Source: Saprospiraceae bacterium (GTDB lineage: Bacteria > Bacteroidota > Bacteroidia > Chitinophagales > Saprospiraceae). From it: a stretch of DNA of 34,156 bases. This document shows, one piece after another, positions 15,779 to 31,856 of this stretch. The notes below the pieces were generated by a model. It was not told the DNA's origin. It made no database searches and was given only the letters and a program-made list of their open reading frames with translations. The position numbers were made by a program, and so were the translations under genes. The first letter of the stretch is position 1. Each line of letters opens with the position of its first letter. The DNA lies in the NCBI GenBank assembly GCA_029262995.1, contig JAJCYH010000031.1:1-34156 (forward strand), in the 5' to 3' direction.

Positions 15779-17392
15779 ATGAATAAAATATCTATTGCAA
15801 AATTTAACGAAATAGAAGAGAAAAAGCCTATAGCAGCTTTTGTAAATGGACTTGATTTAGTGCTGATTAAATATGGTAAAAAAGTATCTGTCCTTTATGG
15901 TAGATGTCTTCACAGGGGAGCTCTTATGGCAGATGGATTTATTGAAGGTGACAATATCATTTGTGGGTTGCACGGATGGGATTATAGATTCGATACTGGA
16001 GTAAGTGAGTATAATAATGAAGAGGTCCTGTATAAGTTTAAGTGCATTGTAGAAGACAATGAAGTTTTTGTAGATGAAAATGAAATAAATGATTATTTAA
16101 CACAGTATCCACAACCCTTTAATACGGATAAGTATCTTGGAAAATATGCAGATACACATCCAGAAAGCACTGAACCATATACTTCTTACATCAAAGATCT
16201 AGCACAAAATGGCCTAAAAAATCATGGACATCATGGTCCGTCAGCATCTATGGGTGTAGACAGAAATACTCTTCCCAAATGGGAGGATATACAGTTTCTT
16301 CCTGCCCAATTAGCCAATAGACCTCTTTTGGATGAAGAAAAAGTTGATACTAAGGTGATCATAGGTAAAGCCGCTAAAAAACCTTTGGTACTTGATATGC
16401 CAATTTTTGTTTCTGACATGAGTTTTGGTGCTTTGTCAAGAGAAGCGAAAATCGCTCTGTCCATGGGGGCAGAGTTAGCAGGAACAGGTATTTGTAGTGG
16501 CGAAGGAGGAATGCTTCCACAAGAACAAGAAAATAATTCAAAATATTTCTATGAATTAGCTTCTGCCAGATTTGGCTTTGAACTGGATAAAATTAAAAAA
16601 GTTCAGGCCTTTCATTTCAAGGGAGGACAAGGTGCTAAAGCAGGAACAGGTGGCCATTTGCCAGGAAATAAAGTTACTCCAGAAATTGCCAAAGTAAGAG
16701 GTTTAGAAGCTGGGCAAACAGCAATATCTCCAGCTACTTTTCCAAACTTAAAAACCAAATCAGATTTTGTTGAACTAATAAACAATGTACGTGAAATATC
16801 AGGAGGTATACCTGTCGGATTTAAATTGGCAGCAAGCCATATTGAAAAAGATATAGAATTTGCACTTGACTTAGGGGTTGACTATATAATCATAGATGGT
16901 AGAGGTGGGGGAACAGGATCCGCACCTACTGTCCTTAGGAATAACATTAATGTTCCAACAATTCCAGCCTTAGCACGGGCTAGAAAATTCTTGGATCAAC
17001 GTGAAGAAAACAATGTATCTCTCATTATAACCGGAGGATTAAGAATAGCAGACGATTTTGCTAAAGCACTGATGCTCGGAGCAGATGCAATTGCAGTCTC
17101 CAATGCAGCCCTTCAAGCTATTGGGTGTCTTGGAATGAGAGCATGTGCCTCAAATAATTGTCCAGTTGGAATTGCAACTCAAAAAGATCATCTTAGAAAA
17201 AGATTAATTATCGAATCGTCAGCTCAACAGCTATATAACTTTTTCAATGCCTCCAATGATTTGATTAAGGTAATTGCCAGAGCTTGTGGACATAACCATA
17301 TTGAAAAATTTAATCACAATGACTTAAGTACATTTAGTTGGGAAATGCATAAATTAAGTGGTATCCCTTTTGCAGGCATGCATAACAGATAA
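15779..17392 (+). CDS. Rieske [2Fe-2S] - glutamate-synthase-like FMN protein
   Basis: 537 residues in two parts. Residues 1-100 form a Rieske domain with ligands C43, H45 (CLH) and C62, H65 (CGLH), spacing CxH-x16-CxxH. Residues about 140-537 match the FMN-binding domain of glutamate synthase large subunits: SDMSFGALSREAKIAL, CSGEGGMLP, KGGQGAKAGTGGHLPG, IIDGRGGGTGSAP, and CLGMRACASNNCPVG with C450, C456 and C461 as the likely [3Fe-4S] ligands. There is no glutaminase domain and no GltD partner nearby, so it is not an ordinary glutamate synthase. Electrons probably enter through the Rieske cluster and reach FMN. The substrate is unknown. No membrane segment is seen, so it should be cytoplasmic. 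Confidence 0.9.
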   Translation: MNKISIAKFNEIEEKKPIAAFVNGLDLVLIKYGKKVSVLYGRCLHRGALMADGFIEGDNIICGLHGWDYRFDTGVSEYNNEEVLYKFKCIVEDNEVFVDENEINDYLTQYPQPFNTDKYLGKYADTHPESTEPYTSYIKDLAQNGLKNHGHHGPSASMGVDRNTLPKWEDIQFLPAQLANRPLLDEEKVDTKVIIGKAAKKPLVLDMPIFVSDMSFGALSREAKIALSMGAELAGTGICSGEGGMLPQEQENNSKYFYELASARFGFELDKIKKVQAFHFKGGQGAKAGTGGHLPGNKVTPEIAKVRGLEAGQTAISPATFPNLKTKSDFVELINNVREISGGIPVGFKLAASHIEKDIEFALDLGVDYIIIDGRGGGTGSAPTVLRNNINVPTIPALARARKFLDQREENNVSLIITGGLRIADDFAKALMLGADAIAVSNAALQAIGCLGMRACASNNCPVGIATQKDHLRKRLIIESSAQQLYNFFNASNDLIKVIARACGHNHIEKFNHNDLSTFSWEMHKLSGIPFAGMHNR

Positions 17393-17394
17393 AT

Positions 17395-17604
17395 ATGGAA
17401 AAAATGGTTGAGTTGATTATCCTTGTTTTTAGCTTTTACTTTATAATGGGCTTCTTTTTTTCACTGATTTTTCTTTGGAAAGGTCTTACAAAAATTGACC
17501 CTTCCACAAGTAATACTTCAATTGTCTTTAAGATCTTTATCCTCCCTGGATTATTGGTATTCTGGCCTATTTTATTCAAACGATGGTTAAAATCAAAACA
17601 ATGA
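17395..17604 (+). CDS. Small two-helix membrane protein
   Basis: 69 residues with two hydrophobic helices (about 5-28 and 43-60) and a basic C-terminus (KRWLKSKQ), so the C-terminus is probably cytoplasmic. It starts 2 bp after the Rieske-GltS stop, and its last bases overlap the ATG of a 30-residue reading frame at 17601 as ATGA. I do not recognise the family. The position argues for a small subunit of the membrane complex made by this operon. Confidence 0.75.
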   Translation: MEKMVELIILVFSFYFIMGFFFSLIFLWKGLTKIDPSTSNTSIVFKIFILPGLLVFWPILFKRWLKSKQ

Positions 17605-17693
17605 ATATCTTACTAAGAAAATATCATCTTAAAATATGGTTATTATTGGTAATCCTTTTTTTAATAATAATATCAATGTTCTTATGGGGATAA
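17601..17693 (+). CDS. 30-residue single-helix membrane micropeptide
   Basis: The ATG at 17601 overlaps the stop of the previous gene (ATGA), and its TAA at 17691-17693 overlaps the start of the next gene at 17684 by 10 bp. The product is Met-Asn-Ile-Leu-Leu-Arg-Lys-Tyr-His, then one transmembrane helix (about residues 13-29) ending in Trp-Gly. The basic N-terminus predicts N-in. The double overlap is the pattern of translationally coupled genes and also covers what would otherwise be an unexplained 80-bp gap in a tightly packed operon. Tiny subunits of this kind (compare CydX of cytochrome bd) stabilise redox complexes; the comparison is by size and topology only. Confidence 0.6.
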   Translation: MNILLRKYHLKIWLLLVILFLIIISMFLWG

Positions 17694-18733
17694 ACTACAA
17701 TGCTGTTCAATGGAATAAGAATAAAAAAACATACGATATAATTCTATGGGTTTTTATCCTTTTTATAATGGCTTTTATGATGAGCTTGCAAGTGATCTTC
17801 CATCCAACTATCACTCTTGAGACCAGCATAATCAGAACTACTGCAATAACAGCATTTTTACTTTTACACATTATCTTAATGATTGGACCATTATGCAGAC
17901 TCGACCAAAGGTTTCTTCCTTTGTTATACAATAGAAGGCACCTAGGTGTAAGTATGTTTTTCCTAGCATTAATACATGGTCTTTTTTGTATAATACAATT
18001 TCACAGTCTTGGTGATGTCTCTCCTTTGGTTAGTTTGTTTACCTCCAATGGAGATTATGACAGTTTTAGCGATTTCCCTTTTCAAGTTTTAGGGTTTCTT
18101 GCCTTAATTATCTTATTTATAATGGCAGCTACCAGTCATGATTTTTGGCTAAAAAACCTTGGACCACACATGTGGAAGTTCTTGCATATGATGGTATATT
18201 TTGCCTATATTCTGATCATAGTTCATATCCTAACCGGAGCACTACAATATGAATCAAATAGTATTTATGTATTGCTAATTGCAGTAGGATTTGTAAGCAT
18301 CTCTTCGCTTCATCTATATGCAGGGATTAAAGCAAATAAAACTGACTTGACGATTGTTAATAGTCATAACAAATCATTGCATTTTGTATGTACGGTAGAA
18401 GAAATCCAAGATGATTGCGCAAAAACATTTAGTTACAATAATGAAGACATTGCAATATTTAAGTACAACGATCAACTATCTGCCGTTTCAAATATTTGCA
18501 AACATCAAATGGGTCCATTAGGGGAAGGTAAAATAATTGATGGCTGCATAACCTGTCCGTGGCATGGCTATCAATATCTTCCAGAGAATGGACAATCTCC
18601 TCCTCCATTTAATGAAAAAATAAAGACTTATCAATTAATGCTCATAGAAAATCAGATTTGGGTAGATGTCATTCCAAGACCTGAAGGCACCACTATCACT
18701 CCTGTAAAAATACTTCAAGATGGATCGAGATAA
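17684..18733 (+). CDS. Ferric-reductase-like membrane protein with C-terminal Rieske domain
   Basis: 349 residues from the ATG at 17684, chosen over 17636 because it overlaps the micropeptide stop and gives a clean N-terminus (MGINYNAVQWNKNKK). Six hydrophobic segments lie between about 18 and 212, with histidines suited to heme binding: H62, H98 (LIHG), H168 and H181, as in ferric-reductase-like/MsrQ transmembrane domains. Residues 230-335 form a Rieske domain with C272, H274 (CKH) and C291, H294 (CPWH), the same CxH-x16-CxxH spacing as the upstream fusion. The protein probably moves electrons between the membrane quinone or heme and a soluble partner, with the Rieske-GltS protein the obvious candidate. 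Its stop overlaps the next gene by 14 bp. Confidence 0.88.
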   Translation: MGINYNAVQWNKNKKTYDIILWVFILFIMAFMMSLQVIFHPTITLETSIIRTTAITAFLLLHIILMIGPLCRLDQRFLPLLYNRRHLGVSMFFLALIHGLFCIIQFHSLGDVSPLVSLFTSNGDYDSFSDFPFQVLGFLALIILFIMAATSHDFWLKNLGPHMWKFLHMMVYFAYILIIVHILTGALQYESNSIYVLLIAVGFVSISSLHLYAGIKANKTDLTIVNSHNKSLHFVCTVEEIQDDCAKTFSYNNEDIAIFKYNDQLSAVSNICKHQMGPLGEGKIIDGCITCPWHGYQYLPENGQSPPPFNEKIKTYQLMLIENQIWVDVIPRPEGTTITPVKILQDGSR

Positions 18734-25928: not shown

Positions 25929-26618
25929 ATGAAAAAACAGAATTTAATCTTTAACCTTGTAGTCCTTGTAGTAGGATTTTTCATAATAGCTGAGATCGCA
26001 TCATGTACTCATGATGATGAAATATTTGACCCAATAGAGGATTCTACATTTGAATACGGTGGTGATATAATCAAAGTATCAGATGGATACAATTTTGATA
26101 AAACCCACTCCTCTGTTCGTTGGGAATCAGCTTATCTCGCTAATTCAGCACTTTTAACAGGTCGCTTCAACAATTTTGAAGGAACTGTAGATTTTATCCA
26201 AAATGACCCAGAAAATATCAGTTTTTCAGGTAAGGTTTTACTTAGTACAGTAAATACTGGAGAACCGGGTAGAGACCAAGGTTGTCTCGTAGGAACCTTT
26301 GGTATAGTTGAAGGAGATATTACCTCTGATGAAGCCACTTTAGTTAGCAAAAGCGTTGCATTTGATAATAATGGTGGATATAACGTCAAAGCAGATCTTA
26401 CTTTTCATGGCGTTACTTCAGAAGTAGATTTTAAACTTAATTATTCAGGCATAACTTTTTTTGATGAAGGGTCTGGAGTATTTGGAGCACCATTGAACCT
26501 TGTAGGATTTACAGGAGAATTTCAAATGAACGCCAAAAGCATTTTCGGTATAGAGTCTTCAAACATTGCTGATCTGGTTACAGTCAAGATTAACATGCAG
26601 TTCAAACAACCCATTTAA
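25929..26618 (+). CDS. YceI-family lipoprotein
   Basis: 229 residues. Lipoprotein signal with Cys26 (IASC), then a YceI lipocalin-like barrel from about 48: YNFDKTHSSVRWESAYL, LLTGRFNNFEGTVDF, VKADLTFHGVTSEVDFKL, and a last strand VKINMQFKQPI. YceI proteins bind polyisoprenoids or similar long-chain lipids in the periplasm. As the first gene of an operon with a ferredoxin, an NrfD-type quinone protein and cytochromes, it may carry a quinone or another isoprenoid; that role is inferred. The gap to the next gene is 51 bp. Confidence 0.88.
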   Translation: MKKQNLIFNLVVLVVGFFIIAEIASCTHDDEIFDPIEDSTFEYGGDIIKVSDGYNFDKTHSSVRWESAYLANSALLTGRFNNFEGTVDFIQNDPENISFSGKVLLSTVNTGEPGRDQGCLVGTFGIVEGDITSDEATLVSKSVAFDNNGGYNVKADLTFHGVTSEVDFKLNYSGITFFDEGSGVFGAPLNLVGFTGEFQMNAKSIFGIESSNIADLVTVKINMQFKQPI

Positions 26619-26669
26619 TCAACCCTGCTGACTTAGAACTATTCACTATTTCACAATAAAAATTGAATT

Positions 26670-27062
26670 ATGAAAACTGAAAATATATTGTCAGTGCTGC
26701 TCTTAATAGTGTTCGTTTGTTTCTTTAGTGCGTGCTATTATGATGACCCTCCTGAAGTGGCACCAATTGATATTGAAGATGTATCTTTTTCAACGCATAT
26801 TCTGCCCACTTTTGAAAGCAGTTGCAGTACATCCAATTGTCATGATGGGACCAAGGAACCTAACCTGACCAGTGATCAAGCTTACTCTGAATTATTAGCT
26901 GGAGGGTATATTAATACAACTATACCTGAAGCCAGTATACTATACAAATCTGTTGATTTTCAGTCTGGGACTGAAGCAATGCCTCCAGGTGGTCCGAAGT
27001 TACCTAATACTGACATTGAAGTGATTCGCTTGTGGATTATTAAGGGTGCACCTAACAATTAA
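26670..27062 (+). CDS. Cytochrome c-like lipoprotein with CX4CH motif
   Basis: 130 residues. Lipobox FSAC at Cys22. The mature part reads FSTHILPTFESSC-STSN-CHDG: Cys52 and Cys57 with His58, a CX4CH arrangement instead of CX2CH, and a possible axial Met in EAMPPGG (Met104). This pattern is common in Planctomycete/Bacteroidota-type cytochrome lipoproteins ending in a short helix like DIEVIRLWIIKGAPNN. It should sit in the periplasm, tethered to a membrane. Whether heme attaches to a CX4CH site here is not shown by sequence alone. Confidence 0.8.
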   Translation: MKTENILSVLLLIVFVCFFSACYYDDPPEVAPIDIEDVSFSTHILPTFESSCSTSNCHDGTKEPNLTSDQAYSELLAGGYINTTIPEASILYKSVDFQSGTEAMPPGGPKLPNTDIEVIRLWIIKGAPNN

Positions 27063-27105
27063 GATTTTAGTCTTATGTATAATTAACAAACAAAAAAAGA
27101 GCATT

Positions 27106-28023
27106 ATGAATCTATATAAATTAAATAGTAGTTCTCGAATATTCTCTAACTTGCTTATAGCAATTACATTGGTACTGTTAGTCTTTTTATCCATTCCGCA
27201 GATAATATATGCCCAAGATGATTCGATTGACGAACTTGAAAAAGCAGTAGACAAACCCGTTAGATCGGTTTTTGAATCTGCTCTCTTAATAGACAACCAG
27301 ACAGTTGTTGTTCCTTCAAAAGGGACTTTTGAATTTGACATCCAGCATCGCTTTGGTACGCTTGATAAAGGGTACGAGGATTTGTTTGGCTTATATGCTA
27401 ACTCCAATATCCGATTAGGATTCGGATATGCTCCAATTGAAAATTTATTCCTTGGAGTAGGATTAACCAAATTCAAAAACCTAGTAGACTTGAATGTTAA
27501 ATATTCTTTACTCAAACAAACCCGAAGTGGTGCCATACCAGTATTTATCACCTATTATGGTGTCATGGCTTTTGACACAAGAAAAGAAGACAAAAGGGAA
27601 GAAGTCTTCCATTCTTCTGATAGAATATCATATTTCAATCAGGTATTAATCGGCAGAAAATTTAACAATTGGTTGTCTGTACAGGTTGCCCCAAGTGTTT
27701 CCCATTATAATATTGTAGAGAAAACCAGGAATCACGATCATATCGCAGTCGCTGTAGGTGCACAACTTAAATTAACCGATACTATGAGCTTTCTATTAAA
27801 TATTGATCAACCCATAACTAAGCACGAAGCCAACAATCCGAATCCAAATGTCAGTTTTGGTATTCAGATGGCAACAAGCTCTCACGCATTCCAGATTTTC
27901 TTGGGTAATTCGAATATGATTATTCCACAAGAAACAAATTTCAATAATAACAGAAACTACTCTGATAACTTTGGAGAAAACTTTTTAATAGGGTTCAATA
28001 TTACCCGCCTCTGGGCATTATAG
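27106..28023 (+). CDS. DUF5777-family beta-barrel protein
   Basis: 305 residues from the ATG at 27106 (the frame extends to 27046, but that start would overlap the previous gene and lacks a signal). The signal peptide runs to about YAQDD. The rest is alternating beta strands with family-like blocks: FESALLIDNQTVVVPSKGTF, EFDIQHRFGT, GLYANSNIRLGFGYAP, and a barrel-like end (NFLIGFNITRLWAL). DUF5777 proteins look like outer-membrane barrels and often occur with YceI and cytochrome genes, as here. The function is unknown. Confidence 0.82.
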   Translation: MNLYKLNSSSRIFSNLLIAITLVLLVFLSIPQIIYAQDDSIDELEKAVDKPVRSVFESALLIDNQTVVVPSKGTFEFDIQHRFGTLDKGYEDLFGLYANSNIRLGFGYAPIENLFLGVGLTKFKNLVDLNVKYSLLKQTRSGAIPVFITYYGVMAFDTRKEDKREEVFHSSDRISYFNQVLIGRKFNNWLSVQVAPSVSHYNIVEKTRNHDHIAVAVGAQLKLTDTMSFLLNIDQPITKHEANNPNPNVSFGIQMATSSHAFQIFLGNSNMIIPQETNFNNNRNYSDNFGENFLIGFNITRLWAL

Positions 28024-28057
28024 TTGACGCCTTGAGATTATTACTAAATTGATATTT

Positions 28058-28315
28058 ATGAAAAACCAAAAGTTTAAAAGAAGAGGTATCCTAGGAAAAC
28101 TCTTACTGTTTGGCTCAGCATTCGCAATAGGCCTTAAGACCAATTCTGTTTTAAAAGCAAATGAAGTTGAAACCATTAGGCTCATTGGCAAAGACGGTAA
28201 GGTTCATGAAGTGGAAAGAAAGAATTTAAATAAAATGTGTTCAGGAAAAGTTTCAAATAAAAGGCTTCTTTCCTGGCTAAACAAAAAGGACTCAAAAGAT
28301 GGACAAATCAGATAA
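28058..28315 (+). CDS. Small exported protein related to the N-terminus of the next ferredoxin
   Basis: 85 residues from the ATG at 28058. KFKRRGILGKLLLFGSAFAIG is a Tat-like or hydrophobic export signal. It is followed by ETIRLIGKDGKVHEVERKNL, which aligns with KTVQLLSQDGELVEVDEAFL (residues 42-61) of the ferredoxin encoded next. There are no iron-sulfur cysteines, only a single MCSG. It overlaps the ferredoxin gene by 17 bp. It looks like a free copy of the ferredoxin's N-terminal module. Function unknown. Confidence 0.7.
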   Translation: MKNQKFKRRGILGKLLLFGSAFAIGLKTNSVLKANEVETIRLIGKDGKVHEVERKNLNKMCSGKVSNKRLLSWLNKKDSKDGQIR

Positions 28316-29225
28316 TAACAGACGGAGTTTCATAAAAAAAGCCGGTCTTGCAGGTTTACTAACGGGATCTACATGGGTTGCATCTGATGCTTTTCAGTCC
28401 AATCAAATAGAGAAAAGCGGAAAAACAGTTCAGCTCCTTTCTCAGGATGGGGAATTGGTTGAAGTTGATGAAGCATTCCTTAAACCCATTCCAGACATCC
28501 ATATTTCACCAGAAGAAGCAAGAGAAGGCATTGAAGGACGAAAATTTGTCATGGTCATAGACTTGGCACAATGCAAAAACTTGCGTAAATGCCATGATGC
28601 CTGTGAGAAAATGCACTACTTGTCTCCTGAAAAAGAGTGGTTGAAGGTCTTGAAAATGCAGGACAATGAATTGGCAGAACCCTATTGGCAGCCTACGATG
28701 TGTTTTCATTGTGACCAACCCCCATGCGTGAAAGTCTGTCCTGTCGATGCGACCTTTAAACGATCGGATGGGATTGTATTGATAGATAATGAGCGTTGTA
28801 TCGGCTGCCGGTTTTGTATGGTGGCCTGCCCCTATTCTGCAAGAACCTTTGACTGGAGCGAGCCACAGATACCACTTGAAATCGCAGAGATGCCGTATTC
28901 TCCTGAGACGAGTTGTCCACCTAAAAAAGGTACGGTGTCCAAATGTGATTTTTGTCCTGACAAAACCCGAAAAGGCGAATTGCCTCCATGTGTGACAGCC
29001 TGCCCTAATGGTGTCTTTTACTTTGGTGATGAAAATGAGGATGCTGTATCAAACGGATCTGTTACGGTCAAGCTTAGTACATTGCTTGCAGATCGTGCTG
29101 GATATAGGTACATGGAGGATTTAGGCACTAAGCCAAGAGTATATTATCTGCCTCCTGTGAATAGAGCATTCCCGTTTGAAGATGATGAATATACTAGAAC
29201 TCAAAATGAAGGTCATGATCACTAA
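28299..29225 (+). CDS. Tat-exported 4Fe-4S ferredoxin-type electron-transfer subunit (DmsB/PsrB/HybA-like)
   Basis: 308 residues. The twin-arginine signal NRRSFIKKAGLAG at 7-19 sends it folded to the periplasm. Four cysteine groups follow: C92/C98/C102, C135/C138/C143/C147 (CFHCDQPPCVKVC), C167/C170/C173/C177 (CIGCRFCMVAC) and C216/C219/C231/C235 (CDFCPDK...CVTAC), so up to four [4Fe-4S] clusters. The first group is CKNLRKCHDAC rather than CxxCxxC. In DMSO and polysulfide reductase-type complexes this subunit links a molybdopterin subunit to an NrfD membrane subunit. No such catalytic subunit is encoded here. The gene overlaps the NrfD gene by 11 bp. Confidence 0.92.
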   Translation: MDKSDNNRRSFIKKAGLAGLLTGSTWVASDAFQSNQIEKSGKTVQLLSQDGELVEVDEAFLKPIPDIHISPEEAREGIEGRKFVMVIDLAQCKNLRKCHDACEKMHYLSPEKEWLKVLKMQDNELAEPYWQPTMCFHCDQPPCVKVCPVDATFKRSDGIVLIDNERCIGCRFCMVACPYSARTFDWSEPQIPLEIAEMPYSPETSCPPKKGTVSKCDFCPDKTRKGELPPCVTACPNGVFYFGDENEDAVSNGSVTVKLSTLLADRAGYRYMEDLGTKPRVYYLPPVNRAFPFEDDEYTRTQNEGHDH

Positions 29226-30543
29226 TGAGCACATACCTCAAAACGTGAATACTATTATAAATGATCTCGAACCAAGAGCCTTTGGACGTATTGGAAAGCT
29301 ATGGGTAGCAGTGCTTGTCGGGTTTTCCTTGATTGGTCTGTTTTTTTATATACAGCAAGTCAGGCAAGGACTTGGAATCACAGCAATGAGGGATTACAGC
29401 ACATGGGGAATTTATGTGTCCAATTTTGTATTTTTTGTAGCAATCAGTCTGGTAGGTTCACTGATCAGTGCCATATTAAAATTATCAAAAGCAAAGTGGG
29501 CCGATCCCCTTACAAGGATTGCAGAAATGATTGCTGTAGCAGCCATCATATTTGCGGCTATAGTCATTATTATTGACATGGGCCGCCCCGATAGGTTTTA
29601 TAATGTCATCATTCACGCTAGGATCCAATCACCTATAACCTGGGATGTTATTGTTATTACGACATATCTTTTTATCAGCTTACTTCTATTGTATCTGCCT
29701 TTGATCCCCGATCTGGCCATTCTTAGAAAAAGACCAGAACGTTTATCAAAATGGCAAAACAATTTGTATGGATGGCTGAGCATGAATTGGAAGGATCTTC
29801 CCGTACAAAAAAACATTTTGAATAAGTCCATTTCGATTCTTGCCGTAATTATTATTCCTGTAGCCTTTGGTATCCACACTGTCACTTCTTGGTTGTTTGC
29901 CACTACTTTCCGCCCCGGCTGGGACAGCACCAATTTCGGACCTTATTTTGTTTCAGGTGCATTTATGGTTGGTGCAGCCACAGTCATCGCCGCTATGTAT
30001 GTTTTTAGAAAAGCATATAAATTGGAGAATTATATTCATCTCAAGCATTTTGATTACATGGGCAGGCTTCTTGTCTTGTTATCACTGATATATCTATATT
30101 TTAATATCAATGAATACTTTATTCCTGCGTATAAAATGAAAACCAGCGAGGTCGAGCATTTGAAGGAATTGTTCATTGGGCGACATGCACAGCTATTTTG
30201 GGCAGTGCAGATTTTGGGTATGATTGTACCAATTGTAGTCTTAATTTTCAAACGAGGAAGACGCCCTCTGCCCCTATTGGTTATTTCCATTATGGTTATT
30301 GTAGGAGCATGGTTTAAGCGCTTCCTGATTGTGGTTCCCAGTCTTGCGCATCCCTTAATTCCTACCAATCGTGTAGACCCAACTTGGTTGAACTATTTTC
30401 CAACTATACCTGAATGGTTTATTACTATCGGAACTTTGTGTGGTGCCCTGTTGATTATAACAATGCTTGTCAGAGTGTTTCCAATAATTCCAATCAGTGA
30501 AACGATTGAAGAAATGAATGCGCGTCAAAACAAAAAACTGTAG
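29215..30543 (+). CDS. nrfD: NrfD/PsrC-type integral membrane quinone oxidoreductase subunit
   Basis: 442 residues from the ATG at 29215, preferred over 29176 because it gives the usual short overlap with the ferredoxin gene. About ten membrane helices. Family features include YSTWGIYVSNFVFFVAIS near the start, DMGRPDRFYNVIIHARIQSP ITWD at about 130-150, and HTVTSWLFATTFRPGWDS around 220. NrfD-type subunits exchange electrons between membrane quinone and an attached ferredoxin subunit on the periplasmic face. Long helices and the PGW(D/H)S loop resemble the ActC/PsrC branch. Confidence 0.93.
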   Translation: MITNEHIPQNVNTIINDLEPRAFGRIGKLWVAVLVGFSLIGLFFYIQQVRQGLGITAMRDYSTWGIYVSNFVFFVAISLVGSLISAILKLSKAKWADPLTRIAEMIAVAAIIFAAIVIIIDMGRPDRFYNVIIHARIQSPITWDVIVITTYLFISLLLLYLPLIPDLAILRKRPERLSKWQNNLYGWLSMNWKDLPVQKNILNKSISILAVIIIPVAFGIHTVTSWLFATTFRPGWDSTNFGPYFVSGAFMVGAATVIAAMYVFRKAYKLENYIHLKHFDYMGRLLVLLSLIYLYFNINEYFIPAYKMKTSEVEHLKELFIGRHAQLFWAVQILGMIVPIVVLIFKRGRRPLPLLVISIMVIVGAWFKRFLIVVPSLAHPLIPTNRVDPTWLNYFPTIPEWFITIGTLCGALLIITMLVRVFPIIPISETIEEMNARQNKKL

Positions 30544-30545
30544 GT

Positions 30546-31436
30546 ATGAAGAAAATAATATACAGTTTGGTCTTGATTTTATCAATATCACTATGTTCTG
30601 AGGGTATTCTTATTGGGCAGGATGATACAACTGTTAATGAACCCGTCAAAATAAGACTCTCGCTGTTATACCAGAATATAAACAATACAGGACCTCGATT
30701 ACTTGCTACAGTTAAAACAAAGGTAGACAGATCATATATTACCCTTGAGGATGTAAATGTTAAATTCTATTTTGGTGATTCTGATGAGAGTTTATATCTG
30801 GGCTCTTTAAAAACGAATGACTCTGGAGAGGCATTGTTTTTGGTTCCTGAAACACTGAGAAAAATTATTGATACGACAGCCGTATATCTTTATACTGCTG
30901 CCGTTCAAAATGAGCCTGGAATAAAGGATAAAGAAACAGATGTAGAAATTATAAAGTCAAAAGTGGATCTGAGCTTTTATGAAGAGGATTCTATCAAAAA
31001 AGTTAGGTACCAGTTTTGGACTGCGGATTCATTAGGCAATATGATTCCTGTGGAAGACCTGAATCCTATATTTTATATAGAACGTCTTTTTGGTTTGTTA
31101 GCTGTTTCTGGTGAGTTTGCAACAACGGATGAAGAGGGAGTTTGTGAAATTGTATTTCCTGATAACTTGCTAGGTGATTCAAATGGCAAGCTAAAAGTCC
31201 TTGTGAAGATAGATGATCATGATGATTATGGTACAATCATAGCAAAAGCGCAAATTGACTGGGGTATACCACTGGTGCAGAGCGATCAAAGTCTTGAGCG
31301 TGAGCTGTGGTCTTCAGGGGCCAACGCACCAATTTATCTTGTATTTATTGTTAATGCACTTTTGGGTGGAATTGTCTTTACACTAATTTATATTATCTTT
31401 AACTTATATCGTATATATACATTAAGTCATGAATAA
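30546..31436 (+). CDS. Periplasmic protein with C-terminal membrane anchor
   Basis: 296 residues. Signal peptide to about IGQDD, a beta-rich periplasmic region (two Ig-like parts: 30-145 with VKTKVDRSYITLEDVNVKFY, and 146-240), then one transmembrane helix at about 262-287 and a short cytoplasmic tail. No cysteine-rich or heme motif. It starts 2 bp after the NrfD stop and is followed 15 bp later by a cytochrome c gene, so it is likely a structural or docking subunit of the complex. I do not recognise the family. Confidence 0.75.
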   Translation: MKKIIYSLVLILSISLCSEGILIGQDDTTVNEPVKIRLSLLYQNINNTGPRLLATVKTKVDRSYITLEDVNVKFYFGDSDESLYLGSLKTNDSGEALFLVPETLRKIIDTTAVYLYTAAVQNEPGIKDKETDVEIIKSKVDLSFYEEDSIKKVRYQFWTADSLGNMIPVEDLNPIFYIERLFGLLAVSGEFATTDEEGVCEIVFPDNLLGDSNGKLKVLVKIDDHDDYGTIIAKAQIDWGIPLVQSDQSLERELWSSGANAPIYLVFIVNALLGGIVFTLIYIIFNLYRIYTLSHE

Positions 31437-31451
31437 AATAGAAAACAGATT

Positions 31452-31856
31452 ATGAAAAATTCATTCGGTTTTAGTTTATTGTTTCTTCTTGGGGCGTGCC
31501 TTTTGCTTGCCTTTTCTGTCCTAGATCAGGAGCCATGGGTCGTTCCAGAGAAGTATCAAAACCTAGACAACCCCATTACAGCTGATGATGAATCAATGGA
31601 TATTGGAAAGTCACTTTATAACAAACATTGTAAGTCATGTCATGGCAAGGAAGGTCTTGGAGATGGATCTAAAGCAGAGCAATTGGATACGCCGTCTGGT
31701 GATTTTACAGATGATTATTTTACACTGCAAACAGATGGCAGTATCTATTATAAGACTGTTAAAGGCCGTGATGATATGCCAAGTTTTGAAAAGAAAATAC
31801 CGGACTCTGAAGACATCTGGCATGTCGTTAACTATATCCGTTCTCTAGCCGAATAA
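31452..31856 (+). CDS. Monoheme cytochrome c
   Basis: 134 residues. N-terminal signal or anchor helix (about 4-24), then one heme site CKSCH (C60, C63, H64) with axial Met109 in GRDDMPSFEKKI and the C-terminal helix VVNYIRSLAE: a class I cytochrome c domain. The signal has no typical cleavage site, so it may stay anchored in the inner membrane. As last gene of the operon it is the probable periplasmic electron carrier for the ferredoxin/NrfD unit. No terminator is visible just after the stop. Confidence 0.92.
   Translation: MKNSFGFSLLFLLGACLLLAFSVLDQEPWVVPEKYQNLDNPITADDESMDIGKSLYNKHCKSCHGKEGLGDGSKAEQLDTPSGDFTDDYFTLQTDGSIYYKTVKGRDDMPSFEKKIPDSEDIWHVVNYIRSLAE

Follow-up and report, generated by a model that had tools for sequence, protein, structure and literature searches.

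An operon of eight genes on the forward strand of a contig from a Saprospiraceae bacterium (GenBank JAJCYH010000031.1, positions 25929–31856) is proposed here to encode a minimal quinol:cytochrome c oxidoreductase feeding an electron-transfer assembly of the outer membrane, a reading to which we give a probability of about one half. The window analysed, 34,156 nucleotides, is the entire contig (C31) of a host genome of 3.77 Mb that is 97.7% complete. The operon ends well inside it, and the search for a plasmid origin gave no match at E 1e-40 or better. The genes encode, in order, a YceI lipocalin, a lipoprotein with a CX4CH haem motif, a DUF5777 barrel, a small protein like those of the twin-arginine translocation (Tat) type, a ferredoxin, an NrfD subunit, an anchored periplasmic protein and a cytochrome c (Table 1), and are tightly spaced (51, 46, 34, −17, −11, 2 and 15 bases between successive genes). 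An earlier first-pass annotation had described these eight genes as one operon lacking both a molybdopterin subunit and a multihaem cytochrome, and sequence and Pfam analysis bear it out on each point.

Conservation and the search for a molybdopterin subunit

A gene-neighbourhood survey, which the first-pass annotation had proposed, found the companions of the ferredoxin conserved in most of 47 close loci, those among 54 in which the ferredoxin is 51–75% identical to that of the window. NrfD is present in 45 of the 47, the anchored protein in 44, the cytochrome c in 41, DUF5777 in 33, the CX4CH lipoprotein in 31, YceI in 18 and the small Tat-like protein in 17. Gene order is much alike in most of them; L039 differs in that its anchored protein is encoded between the ferredoxin and NrfD genes. 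The ferredoxin is found in 16 of the 149 genomes of the host's order and in seven of 296 genomes of the phylum. Judged from these sequences, the set is a real but sporadic module, more than a chance association. ActC, a subunit of alternative complex III (ACIII), occurs in 147 of the 149 genomes, and since all 16 module genomes keep it, the module would be an addition to ACIII and not a substitute for it. One locus labelled Myxococcales (L046) also carries the module and may be mis-binned, as it belongs to the same sample series as the Balneolaceae locus L023. Lone ferredoxin relatives (54–56% identical) occur without NrfD at L040:9001-9930 and L041:8995-9939, the former beside multicopper-oxidase-like genes recognized by eye.

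No molybdopterin subunit lies beside any of the 51–75% identical ferredoxins. A search with three molybdenum (Mo)-type query proteins covered 59 loci (the 47 close loci, 11 further ones and the window, L090 being a repeat of L029), with flanks of at most about 9 kb and many short contigs; besides the ferredoxin open reading frames (ORFs), it matched only the ActB end of L035. In this locus the module adjoins the bacterium's own ACIII, the operon of which ends directly before a run of hexahaem cytochrome, lipoprotein, barrel, ferredoxin and NrfD genes. The nearest Mo-bearing relative is L052 (Neomarinimicrobiota), where a Tat-Mo protein (PF00384, 112.9 bits) accompanies a ferredoxin and an NrfD 36% and 40% identical to those of the window, with multihaem genes and an EB_dh protein around them. 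Because L052 has this protein beside a related ferredoxin and NrfD, the pair is, by sequence, kin to Mo-type systems, and the module itself is without a Mo subunit. The case that had been named as refuting, a Mo subunit within homologous operons, is therefore found only distantly, in L052, and not among the close relatives.

The host genome was likewise searched for an orphan molybdopterin subunit. PF00384 is found in two of its proteins: one is ActB of ACIII (contig C18) and the other, of 780 residues (contig C4), has unrelated neighbours, namely beta-lactamase-fold and alanine-dehydrogenase-like genes identified by eye. PF03916 is also found in two proteins, the NrfD of the operon and ActC. 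The search for a bc1 complex or ACIII, suggested at the same time, succeeded for ACIII; bc1-type cytochrome b (PF00033) was not found in the host genome.

Inner-membrane and periplasmic components

Among solved structures, the best relatives of the NrfD protein are the ActC subunits of ACIII (8k9e_C, 176 bits; 6lod_C, 175 bits), with ActF matching more weakly, and with the ActC of the host it shares 30% identity over 433 residues. The quinone-site residues of the NrfD family have been named by Calisto and Pereira (PMC8076601), and their equivalents in the window protein were mapped by spacing onto 8k9e_C and host ActC. The protonatable position of transmembrane helix 2, given there as His139 in ActC and as Asp in HybB, DsrP and QrcD, is Asp in the window NrfD, and the equivalents of Ser164 and Asp169 are kept. 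This Asp is retained in the window-type alignment rows with the sole exception of L027_883 (Ala), and its distance of 18 to the Ser equals the values listed there for DsrP, QrcD, TtrC and NhcC. An exported iron–sulfur subunit paired with an NrfD protein keeping most quinone-site residues, the combination expected of a quinol dehydrogenase module of the NrfD family, thus appears to be encoded here. In a tree of 50 NrfD rows, from which about a dozen near-duplicates, two L035 pieces and the copies of the 11 further loci were left out, the window type forms one clade of 26 rows (support 100/99); the Hydrotalea type joins it at 98/99 and a second type more weakly, at 87/69, and the ActC rows, including that of L035's own ACIII, form a separate branch (100/100). 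The helix 2 position in the second type (L015, L019, L020, L034, L035 and L045) is Cys in six of seven rows and Glu in one.

The ferredoxin comprises 308 residues and has no PF00384 domain. It had been described as a Tat-exported protein with four clusters; the four cluster sites stand, but only 15 of the usual 16 cysteines are present, a loss that the first-pass annotation overlooked. Because Leu95 replaces Cys at position 2 of motif I, one of the four clusters is probably a [3Fe-4S] cluster or has another ligand. The position is occupied by a residue other than Cys in 48 of 57 aligned rows and by Cys in six (the second copy of L032, the first copy of L035, L042, L044, L048 and L052), the remaining three, DsrO-like, rows not aligning there. 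Host ActB lacks a different cluster cysteine, in motif III, so that the two probable [3Fe-4S] sites do not go back to one shared loss; derivation of the ferredoxin from ActB by removal of the Mo-like part was set aside, as the missing cysteine differs. Also overlooked was the kinship, seen by alignment, of the small Tat-like protein to the ferredoxin N-terminus; its cluster comprises 19 loci, the window included.

The model of the anchored protein (mean pLDDT 91.6) has two beta-sandwich stretches and a membrane helix at residues 263–295. It belongs to no Pfam family, a PDB profile search gave three weak matches (best E 0.054), and Foldseek found Ig-like matches at the domain level only (TM-score <0.3). 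The cytochrome c is 34% identical to host ActE over 96 residues (E 1.4e-14 in a three-sequence comparison).

The set thus resembles ACIII in its NrfD, its cytochrome c and its ferredoxin domain (27% over 273 residues), but differs in having one NrfD instead of two (ActC and ActF), in lacking the pentahaem ActA and ActD, and in that no Mo-like domain is fused to the ferredoxin domain as in ActB. The Mo-containing complex iron–sulfur molybdoenzyme reductases (Psr, Dms, Ttr and Arr) possess a molybdopterin catalytic subunit, which the operon does not. Complexes of the HmcBC type join a ferredoxin and an NrfD to cytochromes. The same arrangement, with cytochromes and not a Mo enzyme as partner, is described for NhcABCD, QrcABCD and DsrMKJOP (PMC8076601); all of these are complexes of sulfate reducers. 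A resemblance to them is also seen in the best NCBIfam scores, DsrO for the ferredoxin (182.8 bits; cut-off 200) and DsrP for NrfD (137.4; cut-off 350), and in the Asp–Ser spacing shared with DsrP, QrcD and NhcC. Both Dsr scores are nevertheless below their cut-offs, as is that for QrcC (116.3 against 400), DsrM, DsrK and DsrJ are missing from the operon, and the multihaem cytochromes of these systems (DsrJ, QrcA and NhcA) contrast with the single-haem proteins found here.

Outer-membrane genes and their exchangeable partner

In 33 aligned rows of the cytochrome lipoprotein, the lipid-bearing Cys22 and the haem residues Cys52, Cys57 and His58 are invariant. The motif reads CX4CH in 30 rows and has a CX2, CX5 or CX6 gap in the other three; L110–L112, outside these rows, have CXXCH too. 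The Pfam score of the window protein, 17.8, is under the family cut-off of 27. The structure model of DUF5777 is a barrel of 12 strands (mean pLDDT 88.5), nearest in Foldseek to FapF, NanC and COG4313 channels (E ~1e-5; TM-score ≤0.50 on the query), and a PDB profile search gave no matches.

The lipoprotein directly precedes the barrel in 43 of 49 DUF5777 copies of module loci, a count that drops L090 and leaves aside copies hidden by opposite-strand ORFs, such as that of L019. The partner preceding them is YceI in 17 copies and an EB_dh protein in 17; four copies are accompanied by a hexahaem cytochrome, and 11 have none of the three. With PF09459 the EB_dh proteins, which are haem-binding lipoproteins, score 61–98 bits. 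Of three hexahaem proteins scanned, two have a collagen-like stretch and match the domain model of MtrC/MtrF, one of them above the cut-off. In L110 a hexahaem cytochrome, EB_dh, lipoprotein, barrel and two inner-membrane gene sets form one run. Mainly because YceI, EB_dh and hexahaem cytochromes replace one another at one place, the outer-membrane part is taken to be redox-active. In two loci large proteins resembling MMPL/RND exporters, as judged by eye, lie between barrel and inner-membrane genes (L088:8220-10469 and L093:6261-8546).

In a quick tree of 66 DUF5777 proteins, 45 of the 46 module-near copies fall on one side (SH-aLRT 100), and the other side holds 20 module-free copies and that of L094; on this tree the module has a barrel clade of its own. 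At least two DUF5777 copies, counted by hand, occur in all 16 module genomes compared with 28 of 133 others (p 3e-10). EB_dh is present in 13 of the 149 genomes, 11 of 16 with the module and two of 133 without (Fisher p 2e-11), and in 10 of those 11 it lies within about 10 kb of the ferredoxin on the same contig. Both the interchangeability of the partners and the barrel clade peculiar to the module strengthen the link to the outer membrane at which the first-pass annotation had hinted. In 20 module-free regions (L065–L084) DUF5777 is usually accompanied by cytochrome lipoproteins, YceI and a tRNA_anti-like OB-fold lipoprotein, and because this set is near-universal and is found in such regions, the module seems to be a later attachment to outer-membrane genes that are older than it. 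Beside the host's second DUF5777 (L087:6819-9497, contig C29) are a lipoprotein in which CX4CH occurs twice and a protein of 348 residues in which CXXCH does.

Surface lipoproteins of Bacteroidetes are reported to carry an acidic export signal after the lipid cysteine (PMC5080379). In the window YceI this cysteine is followed by THDDE, the resemblance of which to the signal is a weak hint of surface exposure, the tests being mixed. Acidic residues follow the lipid cysteine in 12 of 16 YceI proteins and in four of 35 other lipobox ORFs (p 1.4e-5), the lipobox pattern being crude enough to flag 19 ferredoxins too. For a second form of the motif no enrichment was seen (9/16 versus 11/35, p 0.13), and the acidic signal was not shown by the CX4CH lipoprotein (8/32), EB_dh (1/11) or the hexahaem protein (0/5).

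Elsewhere in the window, at positions 15779–18733, a glutamate-synthase-domain protein with an N-terminal Rieske domain is followed by a membrane protein that resembles ferric reductases and has its Rieske domain at the C-terminus.

Table 1. Predicted products of the operon, their positions in the window and the basis of assignment
Product	Position	Strand	Basis
YceI-family lipocalin, predicted lipoprotein	25929..26618	+	Pfam YceI 69.8 bits; lipobox and acidic run by sequence
CX4CH c-type cytochrome lipoprotein (CYTL), small	26670..27062	+	Invariant lipid Cys and haem residues; Pfam below cut-off
DUF5777 outer-membrane beta-barrel, module-specific clade	27109..28023	+	Pfam 254.6 bits; structure model; Foldseek; tree
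Small Tat-like protein, stand-alone kin of ferredoxin N-terminal region	28058..28315	+	Cluster of loci; alignment
Tat-exported ferredoxin, four cluster sites, 15 conserved cysteines	28299..29225	+	Pfam Fer4_11 75.1 bits; NCBIfam; Cys counts
NrfD-type integral membrane quinone-binding subunit, ActC-like	29215..30543	+	Pfam NrfD 123.1 bits; solved relatives; residues
Periplasmic protein with signal and two beta-sandwich stretches, anchored by a C-terminal membrane helix	30546..31436	+	Structure model; no Pfam family
Single-haem cytochrome c (CXXCH), ActE-like	31452..31856	+	Pfam Cytochrome_CBB3 45.5 bits; host ActE comparison

Proposed electron path and competing explanations

In the proposed mechanism, menaquinol would be oxidized in NrfD at the outer face of the inner membrane. 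The Tat-exported ferredoxin would carry the electrons on to the single-haem cytochrome c; the anchored protein would act as a scaffold, and the small Tat-like protein would have an accessory part. From the cytochrome c the electrons would reach the outer membrane, first its CX4CH lipoprotein and DUF5777 barrel and then the exchangeable partner (YceI here; an EB_dh haem lipoprotein or hexahaem cytochrome elsewhere), which would deliver them to a terminal acceptor located at that membrane or outside it. Gene content, conservation, the quinone-site residues, the lack of a Mo subunit in the module loci, the separate barrel clade and the exchange of partners are observed; that the proteins form one path, which way it runs, that the anchored protein is a scaffold and what accepts the electrons are presumed. 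Of the two alternatives that the first-pass annotation had left, the better supported for the inner-membrane half is a new type of quinol:cytochrome c reductase, a function predicted from the ActC-like NrfD, the quinone-site residues, the dedicated cytochrome c and the Mo-free loci.

An outer-membrane barrel with a haem protein recalls MtrCAB, PioAB and Cyc2, and the single haem recalls Cyc2 in particular. In Cyc2, however, a CXXCH cytochrome is fused to a 16-stranded barrel, whereas here two genes encode a CX4CH protein and a barrel modelled with 12 strands; systems of the MtrCAB type combine a large barrel (26 strands) with a decahaem cytochrome, whereas the window operon has no multihaem gene and hexahaem partners occur only in some relatives.

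Several observations weigh against the proposal. No electron path across an outer membrane is known that consists of one haem and a 12-stranded barrel, and as the host genome lacks EB_dh and the operon lacks a multihaem partner, the case for a surface step is weakest in the window operon. DUF5777 is found in 132 of the 149 genomes of the order, mostly without NrfD, and so must be presumed to have a function independent of the module. Twelve close loci have NrfD without DUF5777, and the only two of these with 9 kb on both sides (L042 and L043) do hold the inner-membrane genes in its absence. Asp253 of ActC is not kept in the window NrfD. Finally, the genome counts are uncorrected for kinship, and the tests treat genomes as independent.

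The foremost competing explanation, which we regard as possible if unlikely, is that the oxidoreductase is a spare for ACIII and simply feeds periplasmic acceptors such as a cbb3 oxidase, N2O reductase (NosZ) or cytochrome c peroxidase; the genes for the outer membrane would then be co-regulated neighbours that have no redox link to it. The host has two COX1 proteins and a NosZ, dihaem cytochrome genes lie near some loci (L091 and L097, by eye), and the two fully flanked loci without DUF5777 fit this arrangement. NosZ over the cut-off is also commoner with the module (11 of 16 genomes versus 48 of 133 others, p 0.015), although five module genomes have none, and the separate clade of module-near barrels and the exchange of partners point to the outer membrane instead.

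A second explanation, which seems quite unlikely, is an antioxidant system of the envelope, in which NrfD and the cytochromes would take the place of LcoA, the cytochrome b561 of the Burkholderia BcnA/LcoA pair, and re-reduce a quinone carried by YceI, which would quench lipid peroxyl radicals at the outer membrane. YceI proteins are reported to bind ubiquinone-8, and BcnA with LcoA to protect against lipid peroxidation (PMC9113575); here too a YceI lipocalin is linked to a membrane redox protein, and it adjoins the lipoprotein–barrel pair in 17 of the 49 copies. The membrane protein, however, is an NrfD–ferredoxin pair, the operon has no cytochrome b561, quinone binding by this YceI is only putative, and YceI is replaceable, EB_dh taking its place as often (17/49) and a hexahaem cytochrome in four.

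The other alternative of the first-pass annotation, in which the operon serves as the electron-transfer arm for an oxidoreductase with its genes in another part of the genome, is improbable. Iron–sulfur–NrfD pairs usually serve a catalytic subunit, as noted in PMC8076601, and the distant cousin L052 has one; the PF00384 proteins of the host, however, are accounted for by ActB and the C4 protein with its unrelated neighbours, and the module loci scanned contain no Mo subunit, L035's own ACIII aside. Reverse flow, in which, as in iron oxidizers, electrons from an extracellular donor would travel by way of the barrel and cytochromes to quinone, is very improbable, for although single-haem outer-membrane cytochrome-porins such as Cyc2 work inward (PMC8406198) and Qrc and Nhc run towards quinone (PMC8076601), the reduction of menaquinone by ordinary c-type cytochromes is uphill.

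A bolder form of the proposed outer-membrane path, which is unlikely to hold in full, is a respiratory wire of Bacteroidota to the cell surface with no need of a multihaem conduit, running from a Mo-free ActC-type quinol dehydrogenase through a single-haem cytochrome and a two-gene, single-haem porin–cytochrome (the CX4CH lipoprotein and the DUF5777 barrel) to a quinone in surface-exposed YceI as the last carrier; relatives would have in its place an EB_dh protein of the haem b type or a hexahaem cytochrome on a collagen stalk. Judged by titles and the beginnings of abstracts, searches of an open-access library gave no description of DUF5777 or of this gene set; they found no paper that names two of DUF5777, NrfD and YceI together, and none that names DUF5777. 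If the proposal of an oxidoreductase feeding the outer membrane is correct, a small Mo-free quinol dehydrogenase with single-haem cytochromes would join the known NrfD complexes, and the near-universal, unstudied DUF5777–cytochrome–YceI set of the order would gain a testable role as an outer-membrane redox assembly.

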